This document shows, in pieces, positions 889 to 62,076 of a stretch of 64,000 nucleotides of DNA (position 1 is the stretch's first letter; each line of letters begins with the position of its first letter). The notes under the pieces are model-generated. The model saw nothing but the letters and a program-made list of their open reading frames with translations. It ran no database searches and had not been told where the DNA came from. A program made the translations under genes and the position numbers. Source of the DNA: Syncephalis plumigaleata (taxonomy: Eukaryota; Zoopagomycota; Zoopagomycetes; Zoopagales; Piptocephalidaceae). The stretch lies in NCBI GenBank assembly GCA_025201365.1, contig JAIXMF010000008.1, positions 496,001 through 560,000 of the forward strand, written 5' to 3'.

Positions 889-2518
889 CAGTGGGGGAAA
901 AAATTGTTCACGTGTTATATACTTTTTTACTTTCCCAATCACTACACAATTAATAAACAACATATCACTTTGTACTTTTACATGTTAATAAAGCTATTAA
1001 TTCTCTTTCTAATGATATAAAATATGTGCATACTTTATTATAGATTTCTTGAGATATTAGTGTTGAAAGTCACGTGGTGCACGTGAACAATTTTTTCCAT
1101 TACTAATAAAATTAACATTTCTTACCAATAATCAATTTTTATTCAATTTAAATGTAATAAAATGTTTATATATGAGTAAATACGAGCTGTCGTGCATCGT
1201 ACGAGCAATAAATAATTATAAATCAAGTTGATGTGGTTGAGCAATATGGCTATAATTGCTCATTTTAATGTATAGTAAAAATGTTACTACAGTATGCTTT
1301 ATTCACTTCCAAATGTTGTGCAAATGCTTATTAAAGCGCTTTTAAGCAATGGTAGCCTCCCTAGAACCACTGCGGGCAAGTTAGCTATGGTTAAAGATAT
1401 GATTACATTGAACAATCACGCATGCAGCTGCTGGAATAGCGTTCATGTTACTACAATTTCGCTTATTACTCAGTGTACATTCGACCGATCCTACTTAAAT
1501 TGCAGGTTATGATAAAGCACGTCTTCACGCAGATAATGATATAAAATAATGCTATGTCGATGGGAAAAGCGTCTAGTTATCATCCTACAAAGATGATGTC
1601 ACATTAATGTCACTGAATAGCGTAAATTTTAATTTTAATTTTTTGTAATAAATTTATTAATTAATGCCAAAAATAATAGTAAAAAATAGCGCAGAGCACG
1701 TCTTCACGCAGATAATAAACAATAACAATAGCAGTTAATAAAGTGTTAAAGAATTTATTAAAAGATTTAATAAGAATTAATTTACGCTATTCAGTGACAT
1801 TAATGTGACATCATCTTTGTAGGATGATAACTAGACGCTTTTCCCATCGACATAGCATTATTTTATATCATTATCTGCGTGAAGACGTGCTTTATCATAA
1901 CCTGCAATTTAAGTAGGATCGGTCGAATGTACACTGAGTAATAAGCGAAATTGTAGTAACATGAACGCTATTCCAGCAGCTGCATGCGTGATTGTTCAAT
2001 GTAATCATATCTTTAACCATAGCTAACTTGCCCGCAGTGGTTCTAGGGAGGCTACCATTGCTTAAAAGCGCTTTAATAAGCATTTGCACAACATTTGGAA
2101 GTGAATAAAGCATACTGTAGTAACATTTTTACTATACATTAAAATGAGCAATTATAGCCATATTGCTCAACCACATCAACTTGATTTATAATTATTTATT
2201 GCTCGTACGATGCACGACAGCTCGTATTTACTCATATATAAACATTTTATTACATTTAAATTGAATAAAAATTGATTATTGGTAAGAAATGTTAATTTTA
2301 TTAGTAATGGAAAAAATTGTTCACGTGCACCACGTGACTTTCAACACTAATATCTCAAGAAATCTATAATAAAGTATGCACATATTTTATATCATTAGAA
2401 AGAGAATTAATAGCTTTATTAACATGTAAAAGTACAAAGTGATATGTTGTTTATTAATTGTGTAGTGATTGGGAAAGTAAAAAAGTATATAACACGTGAA
2501 CAATTTTTTCCCCCACTG
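889..2518. mobile_element. 1.63 kb near-perfect palindromic (foldback) DNA element, copy 1, Tc1/mariner-type ends
   Basis: Both ends read CAGTGGGGG inward and are flanked by TA (887-888 and 2519-2520), the target duplication typical of the Tc1/mariner superfamily. The two arms, about 735-745 bp each, are inverted copies of one another with almost no mismatch, around a unique centre of about 155 bp (roughly 1630-1785). A 72-codon frame starting MLYSLPNVVQMLIK occurs once in each arm (1294-1512 plus, 1895-2113 minus); I do not recognise it and it need not be coding. The end motif TTGTTCACGTG recurs inverted at about 1080-1100, a sub-terminal repeat that could be a transposase site. No transposase is present, so the element is non-autonomous. 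It lies inside the gypsy element, hence is the younger of the two. Confidence 0.9.
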
Positions 2519-2520
2519 TA

Positions 2521-3627
2521 GTACCCGCTGTCTACCGCCAAGCTGTATTATATCACAATCACGACGTCCCTACAGCTGGCCATTTCGGTGTCTATCGTAC
2601 ATTCAAGCGTATACAACAAGGTTATTGGTGGCCATCGTTATATCAAGATACTTACGATTATGTAATGTCTTGCCCGTTATGCAGTCGTCAACGCGCGCCC
2701 GCAAAACGCACAGGCTTGCTACAGTCTATTCCAACCCCTGAGCGACCTTTCGATCTAATCGCTATCGATTTGGTAGGACCATTCGAGTGTACTACTAAAG
2801 GTAATAGATATATAGCTGTGTGCGCCGACTACACGACACGATGGATCGAAGCTGCCGCCATACCGGACCCATCTGCTACTACGACCGTACAGTTCCTATT
2901 AGACTACGTTATCGCTCGTCACGGTGTTCCTCAAGCTTTACTTACCGACCGCGGTACAAATTTCACTTCCGATCTAACAGTACATGTCGCCAAAGCACTC
3001 GGTATTCAACAGCGACTTGCTACCGTTAGACGCCCGCAAACCGACGGATTGGTCGAGCGTTTTAACAAGACGCTAGCTAGCATGTTAGCCAAGTTCGTTA
3101 ATGAACAAGGCACCGACTGGGATACGTACCTACCACTATTAATGTTCGCTTATCGTTCCACGCCGCAAGCTTCTACTGGTCACACTCCATTCCAACTATT
3201 ATATGGCCGAGAAGCGCGACAACCACTAGACGCAGCAGTAAAAGGAGTTGAGCCTACGCAGATTCGACATGCAAAGAAGCGCGAAGATTACAGTAACTAC
3301 GTCGAAGAGTTACAACGTAGACTAGAAGACGTGAGAGAACGCGCTCTTGTCATGATTACAGCAGCTCAACAACGACAGTCTGCGAGGTACAATAAAAAGC
3401 GAAAAGGTGCTACGTACGAAGAAGGTGACTTGGTCATGGTCGAGAACACGAACCAAAAAGGATCGAAGTTAGAACGACTACGCAACAAAATGCTTGGACC
3501 ATACGAAGTGAAAAAGCAAACCAGAGCAGTCAATTATACCCTTGAAAAAGTAGGTACTAAGGAGATACTCCACACACACGCGGACAGGATGCAAAAATAC
3601 ATACCCAGAAGTACCACCCAGGAGTAG
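2521..3627 (+). pseudogene. Integrase of the gypsy polyprotein (fossil part)
   Basis: After the palindrome the reading continues with an H2C2 zinc-binding region (HNHDVPTAGHFGVYRTFKR and CPLCSRQ), then the DDE catalytic core: IAIDLVGPF (first Asp), LLTDRGTNFTS (second Asp) and the Glu of DGLVERFNKTL, followed by YRSTPQASTGHTPFQLLYGR, a hallmark of gypsy integrases, and a basic C-terminal GPY-type region (LGPYEVKK). It ends just before the 3' LTR. Part of an interrupted element; treated as a fossil. Confidence 0.9.
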
Positions 3628-24642: not shown

Positions 24643-24748
24643 GAAGCGTCTATACTACAATAAAATAAAAGATTAATTAACCCTTCATATTGTAACTGTG
24701 CTCGTTTTAACATACTGCTATTGCATTAAATACTACCCCATTTTATCC

Positions 24749-27007
24749 ATGGCGTCACAGCCAGGCACTCATGGCTCGTCTACTTCTGCCGACAATGAAC
24801 GAGTTCTGGCTGTGAAGTCTTCGCTTTCTGGCATTGGTTGGAAGAAGCATCACAATGAGTTGCGCGATTTTGTAAATATCGTACATACTACGACCTTCCA
24901 CGCCTATTCGCTCCTAAAGTACATTTTCCTTAAACAGCAGCATAATCGGCACTTTGACATGGAGAGGTATATCCGTGTAGACTTTTTCAAAGAAGTATGG
25001 CTCTCCTTAATCAAGCCCAAAAAAGCACACGAGCCTCAAGAGAAAACAGGTCGATATCGCGCGTTCCTCGACGACCATGTTAGAGCTTACCTTCGTATTA
25101 CTGGCTATAAAAAGCCAGAGTTGGCCTATGCTCATCAATCAGCTACTTACGAGGCAAGGAAGATGTACGTCGCTTACACCAACAACGTCCGATTGCGTTT
25201 TGGTGATCATCTTCGACGCGCTATTAACGAGCATTTCAAGGTTAAGAAGAAGTTAAAGGATATGAGGGATGGATTGCCCAAGGGCGTAGCTGCTGATGTG
25301 ATTCGCGCGAGAACCAATAAAATCACTGAGCCAGCAAAAAAGTTCAAGCTAGCGATGGTACAGCGAGACGGGCCTAAAAGGTTGGCTGGTGAGGGTCGCA
25401 TGTTTGCTGGAGCATACAACAAATTCAAAGGTGTTTTAAATGCTTACGGTAAAGATTACAAATTTGGTACAAACGGCATTTACTACGACTGTAAACAACA
25501 CCCGGTAAAGCACTTTAAGGCGTTCCTTGAACTTGCGCGTCTGTTTAAGAAGCTCGAGTTAAAGCCTTTCAACTGCTTTCCCTTGCGCCGATCCTTCTCG
25601 CCGTGCTACGTCCATATCGACACAGTTATTCTTTGCCACAACATATTAGGACGCAGTTATGAGGATAAGAAGACTGAGCAGCAGAAGGAAGCGGAGAAGA
25701 AGTGGACCGATGAAGAGAGGAAGGAAGCCCTTAAGAAGAAAAAGAAGAAACATTGGGGAGAAGTCGTGGAGCTCAATCGAAGGGTATTCAGAGATCAAAA
25801 GGATGGTGAGCTCGAGTTTTCTGGCTCGATTGAGACCGATGGCGTTGGTGTCACGGTCCTCAAAAAGGGCATCGAGAAGGTCACCGAGGAAGGGGGAGCG
25901 AAATCAGCAAAGGATCCCTTCCCGTATATCAGTAAATTGGATGCTGAGGATCACAAGGCAATCAACGGCAAATGCGTGGCGGTGGACCCGGGAAGAAGGA
26001 ACTTACTGTTTTGTGTACACGAAAACTCGACAGTGGAAGAGAAGCGCAAATATCGGTACACGAAACTACATCAAGACAAGATGCGGAGGACGAAGAAATA
26101 CCGCAAGATTCGCGATGACTGCAAGGAGGGGAATTTGGCGGTGCAGCAGGCCGAGGTGGCTCTTTCGGAAACCAAGGGCAACACTTTATCTCTACAGGAA
26201 TATAAGGAATATCTGGAACGCCGATCACAGCACTCGGAGGTCCTTACTAACTTCTACAGAGATACTCTCACCCTCCCCTCCGACCATTCTGCCCAACATC
26301 CTCTCTTCAGGAAGCTGAAACTCTCAGCCTACATCAGCAAGCAACAAAGTGATCAAAAGCTGATTGATGACTTAAGGGAGAAGTTCGATGGGGATGCAGC
26401 ATTTGTGATGGGGAACTGGTCCGCTCCTCACACCAAATACCACGAGCCCATACGTGGTATTGGCTTTAGAAGGCTTTTAAAACGACATGGGTTTAAAGTC
26501 TTTCTAATCGACGAGCACAAGACCAGCAAGTGCTGCCCAGCCTGCAACAATCCCACCCTCGAGAAATTCAAGAAGGTCCCAAATCCTCGACTCAAGAAAC
26601 GCAAAGACAGCCATAGAATTATCTGTCATGGTCTTTTAAGGTAAGTACAATTTATTACACTTTGCTATTTATTAAATATATTAATTAATTATTTTATTAG
26701 ATGCACACATCAAACTTGTAATAAAGCCATGAAAGATATAAAGGCTAAGAAGGAGCGAGAGGGCAAGCTGGAGGTGGATTATAAAGAGGATCCGGAATTT
26801 AACAGATACGATCATCGTTTATGGAATCGGGATATGGCTGCATGTCTGAATTTTATTCAGATTATTCGCAGTGTTCGTAAGGACAAGGGTATTCCAACAC
26901 AATTCCATCGAGGTGCCGTTTCTCCTCCTGATCCTAGCACGTCCGCAAAGCATTCACTAAATGAAGATCAAGATCAAGAGGGATCTAAACAACAAATAAC
27001 AAATTAA
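24749..27007 (+). CDS. Fanzor (eukaryotic TnpB-like RNA-guided nuclease)
   Basis: Two exons, 24749-26640 and 26701-27007 (60 nt intron, GTAAGT...ATTAG), 732 residues. The RuvC-like core is complete: KCVAVDPGRRNLLF with Asp413, FLIDEHKTSKCCPAC with Glu589, and WNRDMAACLNF with Asp675. The zinc ribbon has CCPAC in exon 1 and CTHQTC (Cys632, Cys637) in exon 2, so the intron splits the finger. The E-x-x-T-S-x-x-C-x-x-C arrangement, with the Glu next to the zinc ribbon, is the rearranged pattern known for Fanzors. The N-terminal half is a basic helical region (RAINEHFKVKKKLKDM) with a long KKKKKK-rich loop. Fanzors are RNA-guided DNA nucleases carried by eukaryotic transposons; the guide RNA usually comes from the element's own end. 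The start MASQPGTH is chosen for its CCATGG context; an upstream in-frame ATG (24698) adds a hydrophobic stretch. All catalytic residues present, no break. Confidence 0.93.
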
Positions 27008-47523: not shown

Positions 47524-48223
47524 AATAGTAACTCTATAATACGCGGTATGATCGCATAGAATAATGATGACTGCATATATGAATCACGAAAATAGCAGAA
47601 AAATAAATATATGTTGACTCACTTGATACCTCGTTTATTGTTACATGAAAGAGACAAATGATTGCTAATGAAATATTCTGAAATGATGATGATGCAGATT
47701 CAGACAATAGACAACGCACACTGTTACACGGTATGGCAGACATTAACAATGGCAAGTCAGCGTATATTTCATTGTTTAATTAGTACCGAGTAAATGTAGC
47801 ATCTATAATCAATTAATGAATAGTGCTGTCATACTGATAGATACTAGTAGTAGTCATTGTAGATTAGGTTAAAGTGTCTAGATATGATCAATTCGATTGC
47901 GTATCTACTGTTCGATATCCATATGATTGACATGACACAATTACTGCATGTTTGATGTTCATTAGGTCAAAGGCGACATTCATGCATGGTAGCATCATTC
48001 AGAAGCAATTATTGAATATGCGATGATATCGATTTGTCTATTCTGCAGGGCATTGTTGTATTACGACTATTCCACCTATAAATAAACAATGCTAATCGAT
48101 TCATCTTATCATCATCATCATCAGGTGTGTCTACTCTTTTATTCTATTCTATACTCATTACTCCATTTCGCTTGTTTGTTTGTTTGTTTGTTTCTCTTGC
48201 TCTTCCATTAGGACAATATCAAC
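47524..48223. other. intergenic, promoter and leader of the microexon gene
   Basis: After the CLU 3' region (AAATAAATAT near 47601) there is no gene until 48224. A TATA box and a probable leader intron lie at its right end (listed separately); the TTTGTTTGTTTG and CATCATCATC runs are near 48105-48195. Confidence 0.55.
48077..48084 (+). promoter_or_regulatory. TATA box of the microexon gene
   Basis: TATAAATA 147 bp upstream of the first coding ATG. A leader intron from about 48125 (CAG|GTGTGTC) to 48211 (CCATTAG) with a pyrimidine-rich 3' half would splice the leader close to the ATG. Supports the view that the array downstream is a transcribed gene. Confidence 0.45.
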
Positions 48224-51200
48224 ATGGAATCATCTGCTGATAACAATAACAATAACAGCCAGCCTATAGTCAATGATACAACATCCATATCATCAAATTC
48301 CACTGGTATTTCTATTATCATCATCATCATCGATACTAGTCAACATACTAATCGTAATACTACTATCTAATGGTCTTTCTAATGACAATCAATAGATGGT
48401 AAGTCCATATTGTATGACATTGATTGCGATACTGATGATGATGCCACCTATGATGCTGTCAATCATAGCTGGTGAGTTAAACAACGAGTGATTATGACAT
48501 ACGTTGTGTTGACTGGAATGTACATCAAAATCATATGTTACTATTCTAGAAGCAGACGTAAGTTGATATTCTGTCTAAATAAACATACAACGTACTAATT
48601 GCAATACTCGTATGATAGGAGGTGAGTTGTGAATCACGATGATACTATGCCATACGCTAATTGGAATGTGGCAATCGATTCCCGTATGATTATCATGTAT
48701 AGGGTTCTGTAAGCTACTAGTATCATTGCAATGAGCCATTTGACTCACGTATGATTGCATGTATTAGTGGGTAAGCGAGCACTCGTTGGAATGTAGCATT
48801 CGATTCACCAATGATGACGCGTAATAGATTGTAAGTGGGCGGTATTCTGATTGCAGTATACGTCATACTAATTGCAATGGCACAATTGCTTCATTTGTCA
48901 TTCCACACACACATATGATAGCATGTAGGTGATCATTTCGATCATAGTCTATGATGTGCTCATTACAAGTTGACGTGTCATGATACGTGTACGATGACCT
49001 GTAACAGGATGTAAGTTGCTAGTCTAGCATTACCGTATAATGTACTAACTGTAACGAAAACATTCTCTTTGCATCTGATTGCACTAGTATGTAAGTGGAC
49101 ATTTCCATACTAATGCATGGCATGTTAATAGCAATGCATCACACACACACATATATATATACATACATAATAGATTGTAAGAAGTTAGCATTCCAGTCTT
49201 ACTAGTTGATGTACTCATTACCCTATGGCATACAATTCACATATGATTACGAGTAATAGTATGTAAGTGATCATCAGTGCAATGTGCGATCGATTAATTA
49301 CAAATTGATTGACGATTCACGTATGCTTCCATGTAACAGAGGGTAACTAGACATTCCTATCGTGATATGTGCGACGTGTTAATCGAAATGAGGAACATGG
49401 TTAATGATGGATGATTACACGGCATAGATTGTAGGTTGTCATTCTAGTATCAGTATACGGCATGCTAATCATAGTATATATTTATTATTACAAATAATAG
49501 GAGGCAAGTCATTATGATGACTATAGAATACGATATACTAATTGTAGCATGATCCATGATTGACTTGTAACAACACATGCAGAAGCACGTAAGCTAGCAC
49601 TCCAATAATAATCACAATAATCATAATGTAAATACAATTCATATACGTGTATGTGTGTGTATGATGATCACACGACATAGACGGTAAGTTATCACGTGGA
49701 CTACAATCCCAAAGTGTAGCTCACCTATGACTATGGAATACAATAGGCCGTAAGTTATTATTTCGATTGAAGCATATGAGACATTAATTGGAGTGTGGAA
49801 TACAATCAATCCACGTACTGTCACGTATAACAGAAGGTAAACTAGCATTATAATCACCGTAGAATGTATGCTAATAGGGATGGTACACAATCATCGTATA
49901 ATAATACATAGGACATGGTAAACTAGCGCTATGATGACAATGAGTGATATGCTAATTGTGATGTGACGTATAATTTATGTATGTTTATGGATAATAGCCT
50001 GTAAGCTAGTATAGCAACTACAGCATATGATAGACTGATTTTAGTGTACTATACAATTCCCGTATAATTACACATTACAGTTAGTGAGTTAGCATACTGA
50101 TTAAAACATGCAAAGAATGATTGTAATTTATATATGGTTATGCATACTAGGATGTAAGATAGCATATTGATCATGGCATGCGCTGAACTAATCGAGATAT
50201 GACCCTCGATTTCTACACGATTATACGAAACAGCAAGTAAGTCAACGTACGATTACAGCATGCCATAACCTAATTATTATATTATCATGAAATCCACGTA
50301 CGATTATGCATGACAGATAGTCAGTTACCCTGTCAACTGTGACGCATAAGCTCATTAGAATTTAACATATGCCTTTTGATTATACCTGACAGGAAGTAAG
50401 TTAGCATACCGATTTCACCATACTATGATCTAATTGTAATTGACATATGCCCTGTTATAATTACGCATGATAGGATGTAAGTTAGCGTATTGGCCATGGC
50501 ATGCGATAAACTGATCATAATGTGATACTTCATTCCCATACAATTGTACGAGGCAGCAAGTAAGTCAATGGACAATTGCAGCATACGACGGACTAATACG
50601 ATTCGCAATACACGTATATTTACGCATCACAGTTAGTAAGTTGGGATGGTGATTGAAGCATACAATAGCTTAATTGTAATTAATATATGGCTCACTAATG
50701 ATTTCACGTTATAGGAAGTAGGCTAACACATCAGTTATACTATGCAATGGGCTAATCGTATTGTAATACACAATTTCTATATGATTATACGTGGCAGATA
50801 GTAAGTCATTGTGCCGATTATAGCATACGGTGAACTGATATGGCACTTAATACACGCATATTTACACATGACAGTATGTAAGTCAAAGTATGGGTTGCAG
50901 CATACGATGGGATTAATATAGCATGTAATTCACGTATGATTATGCATGGCAGTCTGTAAGTTACCATACCAACTGTAGTATATGAGTTCATTAAAATTTA
51001 ACATATGGCTTCTGATTATACCTGATAGAAAGTAAGTTAGCATATCGATTACAAGTTATTGTGAACTAATCGTAATGTTATGTCTTCTATATGATTATGA
51101 ACGATAGGATGTAAGCTAGCACCATAATTGCAGCATACGATGCATTAATTGTAATGAATACGACCCATATGTGATCACAAATGATAGGAGGTAAGTTTTT

Positions 51201-53426
51201 TTTTATGTTCATACTGGATGAACTAATTGCAAAATGCCCTATGATTCACGTATGATTACATGTAATAGTTGGTAAGCTGACATGCTGGTTACAAGATGTG
51301 ACGTGCTAATGGTAATGCCATTGAATGATTCACATAAAACTGGAAATGTCAGAGGGTAATCCAGCATTCCAGTTAATTTACATAGCGTATTAATCACATT
51401 GTGGTACACTATTGGCTGTTGATTGTGTGTGAAAGAATGTAAGTCATCATTTTGATTACGATCTACGGTATACTAAACGGGATGTGATGTGTGGTTACCG
51501 CCTCGTTATTGTTATAGCAAGTAAGTTGATATCCAAATGATGGTGTATCATACACTTATTACAATGGGGCATACAATCCATATAGCATTATACACAGGAA
51601 AAAGTAAGTTTATTGTTTGATTTGGCCAAACATCTTGTGAAGCTAATCCACTGTTTTATGTCCTAGTTGGAGGAAATAAGACGACGTGTAGGTTAATGCC
51701 ACGATTACAATCTATGGTATACTAATCGGAATGTGACAAATGGTTAACGTATGGCCATATGTTAGCTTGTAAGCTGATATTCGAATGATAATGTATCACG
51801 CACTCATTACAATGAGATGTACAATCCACGTATGATCATTTACAGGAAAAAGTAAGTTTTCTCGTTTGATTTAGTCAGACATCATGTGAAGCTAATCCAC
51901 TGTTGTATGCCCTAGTTGGAGGCTAAAAAGCAGCGTGTAAGTTGATGTCACGATTACAATCTACGGTACACTAATCGGAATAAGATATGTGCTTGTATCA
52001 TTATCATAGAAAGTAAGCTGGTATCCGAATGATGATGCATCATGTCCTTATTCCAATGGAACATACAATTCACATATGATTATACATAGGAAGAAGTAAG
52101 CTTTATCGTTTAATTTGGCCAAACATCTTATGAAGCTAATCCACTGTTGTATGGCTTAGTTTGAGGAAATAAGACGACACGTAGGTTAATATCACGATTA
52201 CAATCTACGGTATGCTAATCGGAATGGGATATGTGCTTACATTATAATAATAGATGGTAAGCTAATATCACAATTACGATTTACAGTATACTGATTACAA
52301 TGTGGTATGTGCTTGTATTATTATTATTATAGAGAGTAAGTCGATATCCGAATGATGATGCGTCATGCACTCATTCCAATGGGATGTTCAATCCACATAG
52401 AATCGTATACGGAAAGAAGTAAGCTTTATCGTTTAATTTGGCCAAACATTTTGTGAAGCTAATCCATTGTTGTATGTCCTAATTGGAGGCTGCGGATCGA
52501 CATGTAAGTCATCATTTTGATTACAACCTACGGTATACTGATTACAATGTTCTATGTGCTTGTATTATGATAGCTTGTAAGCTAATATCCAAATGATGAT
52601 GCATCATGCACTCATTACAATGGGATGTACAATCCACGTATGATCATTTACAGAAAGAAGTAAGTTTATTGTTTGATTTGGTCAAGCATCTTGTGAGACT
52701 AATCCACTGTTGTATGTCCTAGTTGGAGGCTGAGAAGCAGCGTGTAAGTTGATGGCACGATTACAATCCAATATACTAATTGGACTGTAATATGTACTTG
52801 TATCGTTATTATAGTGGGTGAGTTGATAAGCGAATGATGATGCATCATGCACTCATTACAATGGGAATACAATCCAAGTATAATCATGCACAGGAAGAAG
52901 TAAGTTTATTGTTTGGTTTGGTCAAGCATCGTGTGAAGCTAATCCACTATTGCATGGCTTAGTTGGAGGAAGCGAATCGACGTGTAGGTTGATATCACGA
53001 TTACAATCTACGGTATACTAATCGAAATATTACAAATGATTAACGTATGGCTGCATGATAGCTTGTGAGTTAAACGTGTCAGTTAGTAGACATGAAGCAT
53101 TAATCATAGTGTGACATACAACTCCCATATGATCATGAATACTAGGATGTAAGCTAGCATTTTTAGCATTGATACATCGATCTAATCACAATACAATTTA
53201 CATCATCTAAACGATAGAAATAAGCAGTAAGTAATAATTCACAATAATCATATCCATACTGATCCATTATGACTACAGAACAAGACAAGGACATCATCAA
53301 GTAGATATTATAGGTATTCAAGTCAAGAATGGATTGGTACAAGACCCTCATTTAGTGTCCATGTCATTCAAGCCATTATTCCTTGGACCAGCAATATATC
53401 TACAAGATCATTTAATCATTTATTGA
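48224..53426 (+). CDS. microexon gene: about 60 tiny internal exons, mostly single codons
   Basis: Exon 1 (48224-48305, MESSADNNNNNSQPIVNDTT..., phase 1 end) is followed by about 60 units of the form intron-AG | few nt | GTAAGT. Read lengths: 44 exons of 3 nt, eight of 6, five of 21, plus one of 2/5/8 nt (48550-48557), one of 18 and one of 15. The first two (ATG 48396, CTG 48469) and the 2/5/8 nt exon bring the frame to phase 0; after that every exon is a whole number of codons. Joined, exons after 48557 are open in phase 0 over about 312 nt, while both other phases meet stops. The protein (about 135 residues) has a polar head, single residues such as W-I-H-D-Y-I-Y-R-I-E and D-Q-I-E-D-Q-L-E-I, and a charged helical tail with LEEIRRR, LEAKKQR, LEAEKQR and LEEANRR. 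No family recognised. Coding ends either at AAATAA (53218-53223) or, with a 2 nt exon, in a 49-codon last exon ending 53426; AATAAA follows. Confidence 0.72.
50151..50717 (+). repeat. duplicated block of four single-codon exons with their introns
   Basis: Exons GAT, CAA, ATA, GAA (from 50151) are followed by exons GAT, CAA, TTA, GAA (from 50474). Introns after matching codons are also alike (for example both introns after GAT share CATGGCATGCG), and the offset is 322-323 bp throughout. So a four-exon block was duplicated as a unit. Confidence 0.7.
51591..53060 (+). repeat. six tandem cassettes of 1 + 2 + 7 codon exons
   Basis: A unit of about 240 bp recurs with 21 nt exons at 51667, 51916, 52160, 52483, 52723 and 52963 (spacing 249, 244, 323, 240, 240). 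Each has a 1-codon exon (Leu/Lys/Trp), a 2-codon exon (EK/EE/KE) and a 7-codon exon. The introns share long stretches such as GTGAAGCTAATCCACTGTTG and TGATGATGCATCATGCACTC. The 323 bp unit has an extra 1-codon exon (AGA, 52333). Confidence 0.85.
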
Positions 53427-54634
53427 ATAAACATGTCGTATTCTGATCATTACATATAATAATAATGCTTCGTCTTGCTCTACATCTTCTGAAGCTATCC
53501 ATTTCAAACTATTCCTAAAGATAGACATGCATTCAAGTATTACACTTGCAAAAGTACTAAAATGATTGAGAGAAGCCTGAATATACCAAGATAATAAACG
53601 ACACCTCCATATAAAAAGAATCCAGTTCTACGGGCAATGATTCAATGGCATTGTTTGCCAACATAATTTAATGACATACGACACCACTAATGCACAATTA
53701 TTGCATAGTGCACCATGCATCATTACTACTACTCTATTATGGTGTACCAATTGACCTACATACGATATACTTTTTAGAACAGACTATAAACATAGAAGGA
53801 CATACTAGATGTAAATAGAGAATCTTCCTTTCTAGCCTTAAAGCTTTTCATATAACCGATACAGTTGATTGACCAAAACTCCGGCAAACCAATCAGCACA
53901 TTGCCATATAAAAAACCCGTTTAATTGAATCGAGTATTGTTGCCGGTATAACCAGCATCCACATCATCAAACACCAACCGCAGCTTTGTCTTTCTTCTTT
54001 TCGCTTCACATTTATATTCTAATTGTTTCAAAGCTACCATCTTGACGGTATACCGCCGTGAGTCTTGCACTGTTGTCTTTATTGTATCCGTAACTCAATT
54101 CTTGGCTATTCAGCATACGTCTACTCTCCTTTTCCTTTCTCCTTCATCATCTTCTAATTACCGCTACTACTACTACTAATAAGAGTAATAAGTGTCTATT
54201 GCATTATTGTTATTGTTGTGGTTGTTTCTTGTTGGTGTACGCCCGTGTAGCACCACTTGCGTGACGATAAATATTTACCGCCTATTGTTCTATCACATAT
54301 AGTTGTATTGGAAACTATCTCTCTCTTTTGTTGGCATCTTACATTCTGGCTTGTAGTCTATCGTCATTTCACCGTGATTCTTAAGCATCAAACACATTGC
54401 AATATAAACGGTGTCTGTACTGGTGGAATACTAGTCCTAGTACACTTGTTACTTGCCACTTGTTACTCGGGGTACCTCAACGTTATTGGTGTGTTTCAGT
54501 GAAGGGCGTGTACTTGCCAAGTATTTGCCTTACTGTTCAACTTTATCTGTGATACACCTCGCACAACCGTAACACGAGCAACCAAGGCATTATTCGATCC
54601 GGACTGAGTAGTTTCAATTAATATCCGATTAATC
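53427..54634. other. intergenic, 5' region of the RhoGAP gene
   Basis: After the polyadenylation-like AATAAA (53426-53431) no gene is supported until 54635. A short TACTACTACTACTAAT run lies near 54163. Probably promoter and leader of the large gene downstream. Confidence 0.5.
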
Positions 54635-57600
54635 ATGTCGAGCTCCGCCAGTATCGCGGAGTCAATTCCATCGGTGACATCTACGTTTAATGCGACACGA
54701 ATGGCATTTCCAGCTTCACATCGATTTGAGGACAACTTCTGGTCACCGAATACATTCGATGATGGCGACATTAACGACTACCGTTCCGGACTTGATGTGC
54801 TTTATCAGAAAATGCAGCAGGGCTGTGTTGAATGCGATGAGATTGCCAACTTTCTACGTCAGCGCATTTCCATCGAGGAACTATACGCGAGTAAGCTTAC
54901 CGATCTAAGTCAGCTCAAGCCTAATCCCAATGGTTTTGGTCGTGATGATGGTGCATCCTTACGACAAACATTCGAGAACATCAAGTCGGAAAGCGAGCAA
55001 CTAGGTAGTTGTCATCGTCAACTGGCCGATAACATCACAGTGATGGTGCTACAACCATTGATGCGATTCGCCGAGGAACATCGTCGACGAGTACAGGCTG
55101 GTATGAATGAATTGGATGGTGCAGTTGGTGACTTTGAAAGACAAGTAAGTCTACACTATAATATACTGATTTGAGTAATCGCAGTTATGTTTATTAACGA
55201 TGGTAAATCGCAATAGATTGATGTATTGGATCGTGCACACGATGACTATCTGAATAAATGTGAGCTTGCCGATCAAGCTGAATCAGAAGTGATGGCAGAG
55301 AAGGCACGTTTAAACGATGTCGACTACATGATCGAGAATCCTCGTCAGGCATTTGTTCGATTGGGCCCGCTTAGTTTCTCGACCGAACGAGATCTTGACA
55401 TATTCCTAGGTCGATTGCAGCAAAATATCCCGATGGAAGATGTTCGCTACTCGTTGTTCGGTGTTTATAAGCATTCGGTGAATGGTGAACTACTAGTTGA
55501 ATGGCTACTTCAATCCTGCCGTGAACACTTGAAATCACATCGAGCGGCCGAGGAAGTCGGACAGGCCATGATCAACAATGGTTATTTAAAGGTCGTTGGC
55601 ATGGGTAGCACATTCCAGGCACGCGCCAACTGCTATTATCAATGGCGTAGATTGGCACCGGATCCCGAGGAGGAGGAGCATCGAAAGTTACGTGCCGAAG
55701 CTGATGATGCCGACGATGTTTACCATCAAGCGGTATTCCGCGCAGAACAAGCTCGTATGCTGGTGGAGCAACGTCTCATGACCTACTACTACACCATGAA
55801 TCAAGCGGAACAGGAGCGAATTGAAGAGGTACGATCGGCATTCACCAATCTAGCGGTAGCACTCTCCAATGTCATGACAGTAACACAAGCGGTATGCGAT
55901 CGTATGGTCGTCTATCTCGAAGCGATGCGTGCCGATTTCGACATGCAATACTTTGTGCAGCAATATCGTACCGGTCCTTATTCGCCACGTCCTATTATCT
56001 ACGAGAACTACTATCATAGTCCGGCGTCAGATCAAGTATTCGGCGTTCCTATTGAAGAGCAAACCCGAATAATGCAAACAAAGATCCCGCCATTTGTCGC
56101 TAAATGCTTGAGTTTGATCGAAAAGGAACTACACACGCTATCGAATGAAGCGAAACAGCGTATGTGGATTGCACCACTACAACTACCGGTGGTGCATCGA
56201 TTGCGTTGTACGGTGAATACCGGTGAGCCGATTACCCTTAAACAGCTGCGACAATTCGATGTCAACACAGTAGTTGGTGCACTACGTCTATACCTGATGG
56301 AACTACCGGAATGCCTATGCACATCCCATCTATACGAACCAGTTAAGGCATTATACCGAAAAGGAGGTGACAATGTTGATGCACGCTTTTCCGCACTACG
56401 TAGCATGCTGACAACCATGCCGTCATCCAATTTCGACACATTAAATCGACTTATTAGTCATTTATACAAGTAAGTAAACGAGTATAGTATATTGAATCAT
56501 TATGCTAATGAACACATGTATATAGTCTAGTGCTATCTACTTCAGCAGATGACAGCTACTTGGCATCTCTAGGCATGACGCTTGGTCCAAGTATCTTACG
56601 TCCAGCGTACATAACTCGAGTGAACTTCCACGATCGTCATCCACAACGATTGGTACGCGACTTGATTGCAGCCTTCAGAGTTATATTCGCACCTATGCAT
56701 CGTTCCTCAATCGTGTCACTGGGCGATTACAGTATGCGACGTGACTCGCAAGATCTTTCCATGTTAGCGCCGAATGTACGTAAACGCATTCAAGAGGCCA
56801 CCGCCAGTCATATGAGTGATCGTGGCTCTATCCACTCGTCGGATTCACAATCAATCACTAGTCCGTTTTCCTCTTCATTCTCAGGAGCCGCTATACTTAC
56901 AGATGAGGTACTCGCCGCACAACCTGTCAACCTTCATGACAACGATGTCGATGCCGATAACGATGATGACAATGATGATGATGATGACGACGACATTCAT
57001 TCAGTATCGACATCATGGGATTCCGATCATGAAGAGTTAGCGACACAAGCAACTGAATCGCAAACCATGGAATCACCAGACATGATCGCCATGATCAATA
57101 CAGTTAGCAGCACTAGTATCATGGAGACAGAAGATGTCGCGGTTAAGCGTAGTCTAAGCAATGACAGCGGACGTGACATTAACGCTAGTCCACCTGGTGT
57201 GCAAACGCGTGATGTTGGACTAGACGACATCAATCTTGCTTCTCCTGCCACGGTTCATCATCCTAGATTGGCGGATATCCCCGATGATGTACATGATACA
57301 TTGGATCAAGCATCATCAGACAATATCATTGCAACAACCAACGATGTAGACCACGATATCGATATACGTCGTGAATCAGCTCAATCATTCCAATTGGACA
57401 ATGACTACGATCCAGAATCACCAAATGGCTATGATTATTACGAGGAACATAACAATGAACGTGAATTTGCCGATATCAATGTTACTGCTGATGTCGATAA
57501 TGATGATGATGATGATGATGAGCAATCCACCGCGACAACATCTATTGCAACAAAGGTCGCAGTCAGTATGGGAGTAGGCTTAGCATTGCACACGGCAATG

Positions 57601-60600
57601 AGTCACCTGCATGATCCATCATCATTAGAGGAACCGTCGCCCAACTCATCAGAGGATGAATCAGAAGATGTACGACAAGGAAATAGAGCTGCAGCATTGG
57701 CCGCTCTACTAGGCTCATCTGGAGATGCTAATGCCGAAGAAGACTCTAACGATGAAAGTGACGACGAGGCGTATAATCCACTAGAGGAAGTTGTATCACC
57801 ATCCTTTAGCATCTACGAACAGGCACGTCTGGCTATGCAAAGCAAACAGCAAGAGCAACAGCATGACACTGAATATGACGATGATGTTACTGCTACTGAT
57901 GTCATTGAGGAAGACAACGAGGATGAACTCAACGCAATGGCATTCACACCAACTAGTGCCGGACTTGTTCCACGTCTAGAGTTTAGTATATTCGAGTCAG
58001 ACGATATTGACGATGACAACGATGATGATCTTGATTTCGGTGCAGAAGATGGTGAATATCCAATTGACGAGCAATATTATGAACAATACGCACCACATGC
58101 TGCATCAAGTGGACCGGGAACACAATCAGCAACCTCATCAATTCTATGGTTTTCCGATAGTGAATCCGGCGAGGATGAAGACGATGAAGAGCTAGAGACC
58201 AATATGGATGCTGAAAGTACATCGGAAGAGACGGACGTGGTGATTCGACGTGACAGTCCTGACAGTGCAGCCACTTCTCTATCAGAAGCCGAACCCATTG
58301 CTCAAGAGATGATGGAAGAACTTATGGAGAAGGCACTAAAGGAAGTGGACGATCAAGATGTTCCTAATGATGACACGATGCCGATCGATGACTTGACCAC
58401 ACCACGCACAATGGAATCAACAGCTCATGTAACAGTTGATGTAGTCGATCAATCTACAACAGCTAATGATGTGGATTCAATTGATGTCGATACATCTGCA
58501 ACTACGACTAAGCCTAGATCATTCATTGATGAAGCATCAAGTATAGTCACTACTGATATTAATGTGGAAGACAATGCGACATTCAATGAATCGATATTAT
58601 CTCATGAGGATACTACAATCAGCAATTCTAATCAACTAGTATCTGAGACTGTTGTAACCGAGATTGTCAAAGAAGAAGTCGATATTACCTTGACATCCGA
58701 ACAGATTGATGATTCCATTGATCAACATTGCAATACACTAGAAGCAACTACTCATACATCATCTATTGATACATCAAATCATTTATTATTGAATGATATG
58801 GTTGAAGATACGACAAACAACAACGGCAACAATGATACTGAAATCGATACAGTAGATACAACTACAACATCAGATGTCATATCCATTGTTGAGGATACAA
58901 CTATCACTCGTACTGTTGATATTAATGATGACATCGAGATACAACAACATGATGCTAGTGTTACACCAACCGAGTTACCAAACGTATTATTCGATATGGA
59001 TGAGGCATTTGAAGCAGTTCAACATGAAGCCGATAATATTGCCAGCGAGACTATTAGTGATGTAATAGAAGCAGCTGTTACATCTGTTGAAGATAGCACC
59101 ATCGAATTGGATGAACAAGTCAGCGACAGCATAGTGGAATCTATTGATGAAGTAAGCGAGCAATGTTCTATTCATTCCATTTCACTAGTTGATCAACAAG
59201 CAGAACAAGAAGAGACAATGTTAGATGATGTCAACTTGCCTATTACCGAACTAGTTGAACAACATGAATCAATGGAAATCAACTTGACTACAACAACTGT
59301 ATCTATTGATGAACAATATGAACAATCAATGGAACAAGAAGAGATTGTAGTAACATCAACAGAGGAACGACAAATATCATTGAATGATGATGATGATGTA
59401 AACATTGATGAATCAATTTCGGTATTAGCACAACAAGTTGTACAATCTGATGCAATGATAGATCAAGAAACACTAGCAATAATGTCCAAGGATATCATGA
59501 CTATTGATGATACCGTAACTGAAGAAGAAAATGTTCAACATGTAGAAGAAGAGGATGAATCTATCATGACAGCACCTATGGTAGAAGAAGAAACTCATGT
59601 TGTTCCTGATTTAATTGTCGATGAAGAAGTCGTTACAGCAGACTTAGTAGAAGAAGAGTCGATAATAACAGCGGCTATGGTAGAAGAAGAAATCGTCACA
59701 CCCGACTCAGTAGAAGAAGAAGTTGTTACTGATGCAGTATTCGACACAGTTACTGAGGAAGAAGCTACTGATGCAGTATTTGATGCAGCTATCGAGGAAG
59801 AAGAAACGATTGCAGTATTCAACGTAGTTACCGAGGAAGAAGAAACAACTGATGTAGTATTAGGCGCAGTTACGGAGGAAGAGACCGCCGTGGTGCCTGT
59901 TTCAATTGCTGAGGAAGAAACTGCCGTGGTGTCTGATTCTATTGCTGAGGAAGAAGAAATCGTTACAGCAGACTTAGTAGAAGAAGAGTCGATCATAGCA
60001 GCGGCTACGGTAGAAGAAGAGATTGTTACATCCAACTCAGTAGTAGAAGAAGAAGTTGTTACTGATGCAGTATTCGATACAGTTACTGAGGAAGAAGCTA
60101 CTGATGCAGTATTTGATGCAGCTATCGAGGAAGAAGAGACGGCTGTAGTATTCGACACAGTTACAGAGGAAGAAACTAATGTGGTATCTGATTCTATTAC
60201 CGAGGAAGAAGAAATCGTTACAGCAACTACATTAGTAGAAGCGGAGGAAATTACTGTGGTCTCTGATGAAACTATTGAGGAAGAAACCGTTATAACAGCA
60301 GCTATGGTAACAGAGGAAGAAGAAATTGTTACAGCAGATGCATTGGTAGAAGAAGAAGAAACGATTGCAGTATCTGATTCTATTACTGAGGAAGAAGAAA
60401 CAACTGATGTAGTATTGGACGCAGTAACTGAGGAAGAAGAAACGATTGCAGTATTTGACGCAGTAACTGAGGAAGAAGAAACGATTGCCGTATCTGATTC
60501 TATTACTGAGGAAGAAGAAACAACTGATGTAGTATTGGACGCAGTAACTGAGGAAGAAGAAACGATTGCAGTATTTGACGCAGTAACTGAGGAAGAAGAA

Positions 60601-62076
60601 ACGATTGCCGTATCTGATTCTATTACTGAGGAAGAAGAAACAACTGATGTAGTATTGGACGCAGTAACTGAGGAAGAAGAAACGATTGCAGTATTTGACG
60701 CAGTAACTGAGGAAGAAGAAACGATTGCCGTATCTGATTCTATTACTGAGGAAGAAGAAACGATTGCCGTATCTGATTCTATCACTGAGGAAGAAGAAAT
60801 GATTGCAGTATCTGATTCTATCACTGAGGAAGAAGAAATGATTGCAGTATCTGATTCTATCACTGAGGAAGAGGAACCGGTTATAACGACGACTACGATA
60901 GAAGAAGAAACTACTTTAGTATCTGATGCAACTATCGAGGAAGAAATGACTGTAACAACGGTCACGATAGAGGAAGAAGAGGAATTGACATTGTCCACTT
61001 CAACTACATGTGAACATGAAGATGAATCTGATATCGATGCTGTAGAGAAAGTAATTAGTACAGTATCAGATGTAGTTACCGTAGAAGAAGATAAGATGAC
61101 TACTGTTGAATCAACATCACTTATGCCTACACCTACATTCCCTGATGATGATGATATGTTCTCTGTTATACAAACAGCAATTCATACACGTTTACCAGAA
61201 TCAGATGAGGAAGTAGACGATGAACATTATCACATTAAGAATGATGGTTTCTCATTGTCGAGTGATTTATTAATGAGAAACTATACTACAGATCCATACA
61301 TTCCATTGTCAGATAGCGAATATGATGAACCGGTAGAACTAGATCATGCTACTGATTCATTATCTAAATCATATAACAATGATACAGATCATGATGATGT
61401 TGATTACTCTGGTAGATACATGTCTATTCGTACCATTGTGTCACCACCATCACCATCGCTATCATTTAATGATGAGGATGACACTGCTGAACATGGTAAT
61501 CATCACAATGATGGCTACTTGAATGGTATGACAAGACAATTACAAGTCAATGCCTTGAATACAACAGATGGATCACTTGTAGTGGAGAAGTTCGAAGATG
61601 ATGCCACCTTCTCTGATGTAGCGAGTGATATGGATGAATTGAATACTGGACGTATCTCACCTGCTTCGTCGTCATTCATGGAGAAGCTTAGTCTCCTCGC
61701 TAATGCTCATCCAATGACTACAACTACAACCGATCTAGTTGAACATACGGAAGATGAAGTGGATTCGGATGAGGAAGTGGATACAGAACTGATGGAGGCC
61801 AAACTAAGAGCAATGCTGAATCGATCGACTGCATTATCTGACGATGAACAACTAGTGATTGCACCTCAAGATATACCATTACCACCTAGTCCATTTGTAT
61901 CGATTACCGTGACCGATACATCGATTGCACCTCATGATATACCATTGCCACCTAGTCCATTTGTATCGATTACCGACAATGAAGAAGATGAGGAAAGTGT
62001 CGCTGATGCATTCGATGCTAATGACTATCAAACAAGCACTATACCACCTGTAGGAAAAGTAGAACTGCCACTATAA
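54635..62076 (+). CDS. F-BAR/DEP/RhoGAP protein (Rgd2 type) with giant acidic tail
   Basis: Three exons (54635-55144, 55217-56469, 56526-62076), 2,437 residues. Domains: F-BAR/FCH (FEDNFWSPNTFDDGDINDY, YQKMQQGCVECDEIANFLRQ + RISIEELYASKL), interrupted by a DEP domain (YSLFGVYKHSVNGELLVEWL, AMINNGYLKVVG), second half of the F-BAR coils (QAEQERIEEVRSAFTNLAVA), then RhoGAP (FGVPIEEQTRIMQ, FDVNTVVGALRLYLMELPEC, LNRLISHLYKNLV and LGMTLGPSILRP). This order is that of yeast Rgd2, a GAP for Cdc42/Rho5 acting in membrane and polarity control. In the place of the catalytic arginine-finger motif G-I/L-x-R it reads RMWIAPLQ. The remaining about 1,700 residues are acidic and low in complexity (DDNDDDDDDD; VTEEEETIAV repeats), then DIPLPPSPFVSIT twice, a proline-rich motif of the kind bound by SH3 or EVH1 domains. 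The tail is far longer than in known Rgd2 proteins. Confidence 0.9.
59590..60885 (+). repeat. coding minisatellite of TEEEE repeats
   Basis: Within the acidic tail of the RhoGAP protein. Units of 13-15 codons ending (V/I)(T/I)EEEE alternate with AVFDAV, AVSDSI and DVVLDAV segments. Three consecutive 120 bp units (about 60366-60725) are almost identical, and the last copies are a 39 bp unit (60745-60870). Near identity suggests recent, ongoing expansion and length polymorphism. Confidence 0.88.

Follow-up and report, generated by a model that had tools for sequence, protein, structure and literature searches.

A stretch of 64,000 nucleotides from the fungus Syncephalis plumigaleata (hereafter the window; assembly GCA_025201365.1, contig JAIXMF010000008.1, positions 496,001 to 560,000) contains a gene with a very unusual predicted architecture, in which dozens of exons of a single codon follow one another. 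The locus appears to be a member of a large gene family, many of whose products would be small secreted peptides, and we consider it likely that these arrays of one-codon exons are spliced stepwise and that the encoded peptides change cassette by cassette. As far as sequence can show it, the architecture, the quantization of exon length to whole codons, a signature of selection and the membership of the family are established.

The motif AG-NNN-GTRRGY was found 49 times in the window compared to 10.1 expected matches, a count reached by none of 100 dinucleotide shuffles. Forty of the 49 matches lie on the plus strand between 48.2 and 53.3 kb, and the remaining nine are found elsewhere, on both strands. 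A dynamic-programming parser using splice-site and branch-site weights, trained on other loci of the genome and blind to reading frame, gave 62 introns for the gene: 61 parsed from position 48399 on (57–92 nt, mean 76), and intron 1, which had to be placed manually, as the parser scored its donor GTATTT too low. An earlier reading made from the letters of the window (the sequence-only reading) had proposed a chain of about 60 microexons, mostly of one codon, and both the parse and the deposited gene model show this architecture. Its figure for internal 3-nt exons was 44; 45 of the 60 exons between the parsed introns are 3 nt long, or 46 or 47, depending on which of three parser settings is used, when the ATG exon at 48396 is counted. 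A branch site in nearly every intron holds for the loose motif YTRAY, present 18–60 nt before the intron end in 52/61 introns (shuffled mean 27.6, maximum 38), but not for the strict motif CTRAY (37/61; shuffled mean 11.7, maximum 18).

No stop codon is found among the 45 parsed 3-nt exons, while the two shifted frames of the 34 adjacent pairs contain five and seven. The phase-0 reading without stops that had been proposed from position 48558 thus stands, except that the frame begins further upstream: exon 1 ends in phase 1, the ATG and CTG exons are phase 1-1, and the 8-nt exon AAGCAGAC (48550–48557) shifts the gene from phase 1 to phase 0, in which the later one-codon exons continue up to the stop in AAATAAGCA. 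The further claim that any subset of exons could be skipped without loss of frame was too broad, because this phase-adaptor exon cannot be skipped. Whole-codon reading throughout is kept by the deposited model, with a somewhat different exon choice, but not by the parser. Near 49501–49588 and in the repeats at 51.6–53.0 kb the exon choice is ambiguous from sequence alone, and all three parser settings give frame-breaking exons of 7 nt and 2 nt in these parts, which counts against an unbroken frame. Taken together, the data support a real gene with dozens of predicted one-codon phase-0 exons ending in a stop.

The product of the window gene corresponds to the deposited protein BDF22DRAFT_655650, which maps to 48224–53220 without mismatches and with two gaps left by the aligner; it comprises 32 one-codon exons, at most 23 of them in a row, and its end coincides with the stop found by the parse. 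BDF22DRAFT_685685 aligned to locus L048 with 39 one-codon exons, 38 of them consecutive, and with neither mismatches nor gaps, and the partial BDF22DRAFT_685769 aligned to L047 with 36 one-codon exons, four mismatches and one gap. When the protein tails were shuffled (20 controls per protein), the number of failures never fell below 33 for _655650, 24 for _685685 and 16 for _685769. There are nevertheless reasons for caution: stricter weights worsened the alignments (six mismatches and two gaps for _685769, no mismatches and two gaps for _685685), and two exons look machine-made, the last one of _685685 and one of 18 nt in _655650. The deposited window model also omits several one-codon exons, most of which score weakly at the donor or the acceptor, while keeping the frame. 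Since weak-site exons are skipped and the last exons are odd, the deposited models may stem in part from ab initio prediction, and they count as a second, independent look at the sequence rather than as transcripts.

What the sequence-only reading missed is that the locus belongs to a large multigene family with homologous introns, many signal-peptide members and whole-unit differences between some paralogues. The tandem pair ATAG-N3-GTAAGT ... ATAG-N3-GTAAGT was matched 681 times in the 32.6-Mb genome and never when reversed; spacers of 2, 4 and 6 nt gave 0, 0 and 19 matches, respectively, and a reversed 4-nt control one. A chance origin was rejected on the basis of the dinucleotide shuffles, the reversed patterns and scans of sequence collections. 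The same pair pattern occurred in 35 stretches of a prokaryote collection, of which the three inspected were cyanobacterial arrays of constant repeats and variable spacers, taken for clustered regularly interspaced short palindromic repeats (CRISPR) and set aside, and in viral contigs as three single matches. Two places in the genome (C58:10437-12683 and C223:612325-614569) carry arrays of tandem 6-nt, i.e. two-codon, exons, with eight strict pairs each, and thus show the architecture in a variant form.

A first sample of 20 loci was taken from the first-listed places of the pair pattern, and ten more were chosen by exon 1 or 3' untranslated region (UTR) matches; the 30-locus analyses leave out L001–L008 and L041–L042. 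In all of the first 20, the same exon 1 was found upstream of the chain, encoding MKFSAVIAIAVAVVALTSLVAVEASPxLxRR or a close variant. Judged by eye, this MKFSAVIAIAVAVVALTSLVAVEA-type exon 1 encodes a signal peptide with V-E-A ahead of the cut, and a mostly dibasic (Arg-Arg) processing site; its frame is broken in L009, L024 and L028. At least 146 genome matches to it were found (150 of 163 candidates scored), and the one-codon loci are fewer, because some of these matches are apparent second haplotypes or intron-poor copies. Small contigs nearly duplicate stretches of large ones (C58/C223, C15/C35), as second haplotypes would, so that there are fewer loci than the match counts indicate. After exon 1 follow phase-1 exons of 3 to 12 nt, a 2- or 5-nt adaptor (where parsable) and the one-codon array, whose exons, once past the adaptor, are in phase 0 in 13 in-frame loci and in the deposited window model. 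The genes close with a stop exon whose last letters are TAAGCR, followed by an intron in the 3'UTR. The 3'UTR is conserved, and at least 40 family matches to it were obtained (40 of 226 candidates were scored, and all 40 match). The acceptor of the 3'UTR intron is ACAG ahead of (A/G)ACAAGAC in 13 of the 14 listed loci, and AAAG in L009.

A signal peptide is not evident by eye in exon 1 of the window gene, which belongs to a subfamily sharing this trait. Its terminal exon has the same NNNTAAGCR form as the stop exon of the signal-peptide genes. Of 31 matches to its exon 1 and intron 1, 28 have at least 91% identity, a figure that counts the window gene itself and one partial match where a contig ends. 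The five loci inspected among the 30 further matches all repeat the first exons of the window gene, in the series CTG/TTG, 8 nt, GAG/GAT, 6 nt, TGG, ATT, CAT/TAT, GAT, TAT, ATT, TAT, AGG. For the 3'UTR intron of the window gene the parser chose a later acceptor (53313), while comparison within the family favors the nearer one. The repeated modules upstream of the stop have a DNA period of about 240 bp (an example is LEAEKQR at 52723–52743), and an AlphaFold model of P0143, built from 4 sequences, shows a helix at residues 53–104, with 42 residues at a predicted local distance difference test score (pLDDT) of at least 90 and a predicted template modelling score (pTM) of 0.38. The product of this subfamily is predicted to be a charged helix.

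When proteins were searched with a family profile, 22 hits at E ≤ 1 were obtained, those with a species name all from S. plumigaleata and none of them a trematode micro-exon gene (MEG) product, in a search limited to relatives sharing 5-residue words. None was named as a protein of S. fuscata or S. pseudoplumigaleata, both of which are in the database, which is weak evidence of absence. The CLU protein encoded nearby is 75% identical to its match in S. fuscata and 73% to that in S. pseudoplumigaleata, with 62% for the hit after these. Five proteins from JGI and ENA (P0138–P0142) have a similar signal-peptide start, and four of them seem to read into an intron resembling the first intron of the family; further relatives may therefore carry it. 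Seven family products gave no Pfam match above the cut-off, and no relative of one spliced product was found among solved structures.

Frame-blind parsing of the 30 loci gave 639 internal exons, of which 534 are 3 nt long and 605 divisible by three; scaling the 681 pairs by 534/153 from these loci would put such exons on the order of 2,400 per genome, second haplotypes included. A length of 2 modulo 3 was found for 25 of the 639, and 23 of these have the adaptor sizes of 2, 5, 14 or 17 nt. None of the 534 exons of 3 nt is a stop codon (481 when the near-duplicate loci L024, L036 and L038 are removed), compared to 10.8 expected from position composition and 35.9 from intron triplets. For TAA and TGA alone, 7.4 were expected and none seen (P = 6e-4), and stops occur in frame +2 at 49 of 417 junctions. 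The mature peptides are highly variable; cysteine codons make up 33 of the 481 exons, and the products of L018 and L020 show a C...CC...C layout.

Several observations weigh against such a clear-cut reading. Frame +1 has stops at only 4/417 junctions, a weak contrast to 0/481 in frame 0 (p = 0.046). The triplet CAG is also absent from the 534 exons, although CAA occurs 22 times; as CAG is missing like TAG, avoidance of splice-like triplets may account in part for the lack of stops. Moreover, in 168 of the 534 cases the exon comes before an adaptor has been parsed and can hence not be counted as phase 0, and only 13 of the 30 loci are in frame from ATG to stop exon, five of them via a doubtful adaptor of 14–17 nt. 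The other 17 include three broken copies of exon 1, weak or doubtful adaptor sites and unparsed units. With the first parser penalties, false exons of 30–45 nt appeared and six loci were incomplete, a problem that heavier penalties lessened but did not remove.

In favor of a tandem repeat or satellite that carries splice-like motifs and is no gene at all, the units are homologous tandem repeats of about 83 bp, with 51.5–53.0 kb detectable as a repeat. The absence of stops from 534 units, the exact codon lengths, the conserved splice cores, the conserved signal-peptide and stop exons, the deposited proteins and the spliced junctions of intron-poor copies (see below) nevertheless speak strongly against a non-coding repeat, which we regard as extremely improbable and have rejected.

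In three pairs of recent paralogues, 2/396 positions of the splice cores were substituted compared to 136/3114 in intron interiors (p = 1.4e-5). Likewise, the one-codon exons of the window subfamily had changed at 3/150 positions and the introns at 260/3919 (p = 0.017), in comparisons that share one locus, and in the pair L035/L038 the exons were unchanged (0/77 compared to 87/1726 in introns, p = 0.049). It must be set against this that all exons of the subfamily taken together changed more than the introns (24/220), because the 6-nt and 8-nt exons vary. Decay of once useful genes into pseudogenes would account for the broken exon 1 in three of the 30 loci and for the 17 that fail an end-to-end in-frame parse, but exon 1 is open to its donor in the other 27, and the constraint on splice cores in recent paralogues and the unchanged exons of L035/L038 make this explanation very unlikely. 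The intron divergence in L035/L038, L023/L036 and L021/L037 is strongly transition-biased (113 transitions, 25 transversions), which perhaps reflects a repeat-directed or deamination-like mutation process.

The same conservation bears on the idea that each gene is a combinatorial generator of isoforms, in which one-codon exons are alternatively included to give many peptide variants. Isoforms of this kind are possible: as most array exons are divisible by three, skipping would preserve the frame, as it does in the deposited window model for the exons dropped there. Those omissions may, however, reflect the choice of a gene finder, strong conservation of splice cores fits constitutive use better, and the phase adaptor would have to be retained, so that we judge a generator of this kind possible but doubtful.

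Differences between paralogues also involve whole units of intron plus codon. Among five pairs compared, two such units differ in L023/L036, whose introns diverge by only 1.8%, four in L021/L037, four in the distant L010/L014, and none in L020/L024 and L035/L038. Introns of different genes have a mean identity of 0.679 compared to 0.510 after shuffling, and since they are about 68% identical, units can recombine. Neighboring introns resemble each other scarcely more than introns further apart (0.691 and 0.688). This tells against one simple version of unit-wise change, in which units would be duplicated locally all the time. A dominant recent role of local tandem duplication was thus found unsupported, while the whole-unit differences between some paralogues are still clear.

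Homology of the introns would also be expected if the arrays were relics of proliferating, introner-like introns and the one-codon exons a neutral by-product, and intron-poor relatives (L043, L044, L056 and L060) encode the same type of precursor in one piece. Random insertion would, however, not quantize exons to one codon, though tandem copying of whole units would. A BLAST search with a consensus intron, confined to the window, gave a single hit, inside the array. We consider such an origin unlikely, and somewhat more so than isoform generation.

The intron-poor set comprises 15 copies (L043, L044, L046 and L049–L060), of which L049, L050, L052, L054 and L059 were not recognized by the start pattern. 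In L046, L051, L057 and L058, TAAGCA or TAAGCG is fused to (A/G)ACAAGAC, the junction expected from removal of the 3'UTR intron. Furthermore, L057 and L058 contain CGTCGTG-CTG-TTG-TCGAAC-GCC-GTG-CTC as a contiguous sequence, while in L013 and its relatives these are separate exons. L053 and L055 look similar, but the exact 3'UTR junction is absent; L043, L044, L056 and L060 have a stop without the GCR tail, and in L046, L057 and L058 the usual frame is lost before the stop is reached. The copies could be derived from complementary DNA (cDNA), but L043, L044 and L046 share sequence just upstream of the ATG with other members, and intron-poor copies may therefore be intronless ancestors instead. 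Under either origin, their sequences support the predicted exon boundaries.

Returning to stepwise splicing and cassette-wise change as the preferred explanation, a reservation is that splicing of the one-codon exons in vivo is what we infer from the sequence. Ordinary spliceosomes would act by intron definition, each intron of about 80 nt being recognized as a unit, and the introns would probably be removed stepwise, because a 3-nt exon hardly leaves room for the factors of both its sides at the same time. In the layout read from the sequence, exon 1 (signal peptide and Arg-Arg) is followed by one or more phase-1 exons, an adaptor that sets phase 0 and measures 2 or 5 nt, or 8 nt for the window subfamily, the one-codon run, NNNTAAGCR and the 3'UTR. 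Gain or loss of cassettes, each an intron with its codon, would then add or remove single residues without loss of frame, a property that would be of use to peptides engaged in an arms race with the host fungus. Syncephalis is described as belonging to the mycoparasitic Zoopagomycotina, and the mycoparasites of the Zoopagales are said to attack mostly Mucoromycota (PMC10386755). That the products act as effectors against the host is a guess, and it counts against this part of the explanation that everything pointing to such a role is a signal peptide judged by eye, a variable mature part and the parasitic lifestyle. More tentatively still, the genes may be codon-cassette genes in a strict sense, with each residue independently spliced and independently gained or lost, and with this freedom used both in evolution and, via skipping, within the organism.

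Among known systems, schistosome MEGs and aphid bicycle genes come closest. The MEGs are parasite genes for secreted variable proteins, coded mostly in very short exons that are mostly multiples of three. MEG exons are mostly 15 bp (6–81 in the text, 3–81 in the abstract), with 10–20 per gene and introns of up to 5 kb (PMC10526429). The family in S. plumigaleata, a fungus, differs from this description in that the most frequent exon size is one codon, and in having up to about 60 mutually homologous introns of about 80 nt. As for the N-terminal signal peptide of MEGs, a candidate one was seen by eye in each of the first 20 loci (three frame-broken), and none is evident in the window member. 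Aphid bicycle genes also form a large family, of putative secreted effectors that change fast and have many small internal exons in one phase. They average about 17 exons, the internal ones being almost all of phase 2 (PMC9168663); array exons here are phase 0 and of one codon each. The family works like MEGs and bicycle genes without belonging to either, since it differs in the size and phase of exons, in the length of introns and in homology. Isolated exons of comparable size show that spliceosomes, fungal ones too, can use them, e.g. a single 1-nt exon in the otherwise ordinary Fusarium gene CYP621A (PMC12940212) and a single 3-bp exon in Drosophila hth (PMC7392893), while the family would have dozens consecutively.

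The array exons are 3 nt long, unlike the zero-length exons of recursive splicing, in which GT comes right behind AG; AG-GTRRGY adjacencies on the plus strand (at most two inside the array, ten outside) are too few to judge. Precursors of the conotoxin type resemble the family in their conserved signal peptide and processing site and in a hypervariable, often cysteine-rich, mature peptide, but the mature peptides of conotoxins are not known to be split codon by codon. Introner elements provide many homologous introns per genome, which are scattered through unrelated genes, whereas the introns described here are homologous too but packed one codon apart in one family.

A search of the leading titles of the open-license PubMed Central literature, subscription papers and outside preprints being beyond its scope, found no description of consecutive one-codon exons, and a family with one-codon runs of 37–38 is apparently undescribed in the literature searched. 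The sequence analyses confirm an extreme predicted microexon architecture well beyond the locus first noted. If spliced as predicted, these genes probe how short an exon can be and still be recognized, and in which order introns are removed, and their proteins can change by whole residues without frameshifts; intron definition and the multiplication of introns would find in the family a natural system for testing. Many predicted secreted peptides of S. plumigaleata may be misread by standard RNA mappers and gene finders. The features of the window gene are compiled in Table 1.

Table 1 Predicted features of the one-codon exon gene in the window (positions count from the first nucleotide of the window).
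Feature	Position	Strand	Basis
TATA-box-like TATAAATA, possible promoter element	48077..48084	+	Read from sequence, putative
Exon 1, MESSADNNNNNSQPIVNDTTSISSNST plus 1 nt, ends in phase 1	48224..48305	+	Exact match to BDF22DRAFT_655650
Intron 1, GTATTT...TAG	48306..48395	+	Set by hand; agrees with alignment of deposited protein
3-nt exon ATG, phase 1-1	48396..48398	+	Parse and alignment of deposited protein
3-nt exon CTG, phase 1-1	48469..48471	+	Parse and deposited model; CTG/TTG in 6/6 subfamily loci
8-nt phase-adaptor exon AAGCAGAC	48550..48557	+	Parse and deposited model; 8 nt in 6/6 subfamily loci
Array of mostly one-codon phase-0 exons and short introns	48619..51520	+	Frame-blind parse; deposited model without mismatch, omits some exons
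Repeated modules with 3-, 6- and 21-nt exons, charged helix	51586..52983	+	Tandem repeats; parses disagree
One-codon exon CTT	53062..53064	+	Parse and deposited model
One-codon exon GAT	53146..53148	+	Parse and deposited model
Terminal coding exon AAATAAGCA, stop TAA at 53221-53223	53218..53226	+	Parse and deposited model
3'UTR intron, GTAAGT...ACAG	53227..53278	+	Family comparison
3' exon and UTR, AATAAA at 53426-53431	53279..53440	+	Family conservation; exon end putative

Elsewhere in the window, a Fanzor1-type gene was found at 24677–26644, perhaps continuing to 26645–27007. Its best solved relative is Fanzor 1 of Parasitella parasitica (E 7.6e-107), while no Pfam family was found at E ≤ 0.001. 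Parasitella is itself a mycoparasitic member of the Mucorales, so that the possibility of shared mobile DNA is worth considering. An open reading frame (ORF) for a retrotransposon-type integrase (Integrase_H2C2 and rve) is present at 2500–3627. An ORF with an F-BAR domain (54608–55174) lies upstream of a very long, acidic and repeat-rich ORF (56512–62076), which contains tandem repeats of 39 and 120 bp at 60352–60876.

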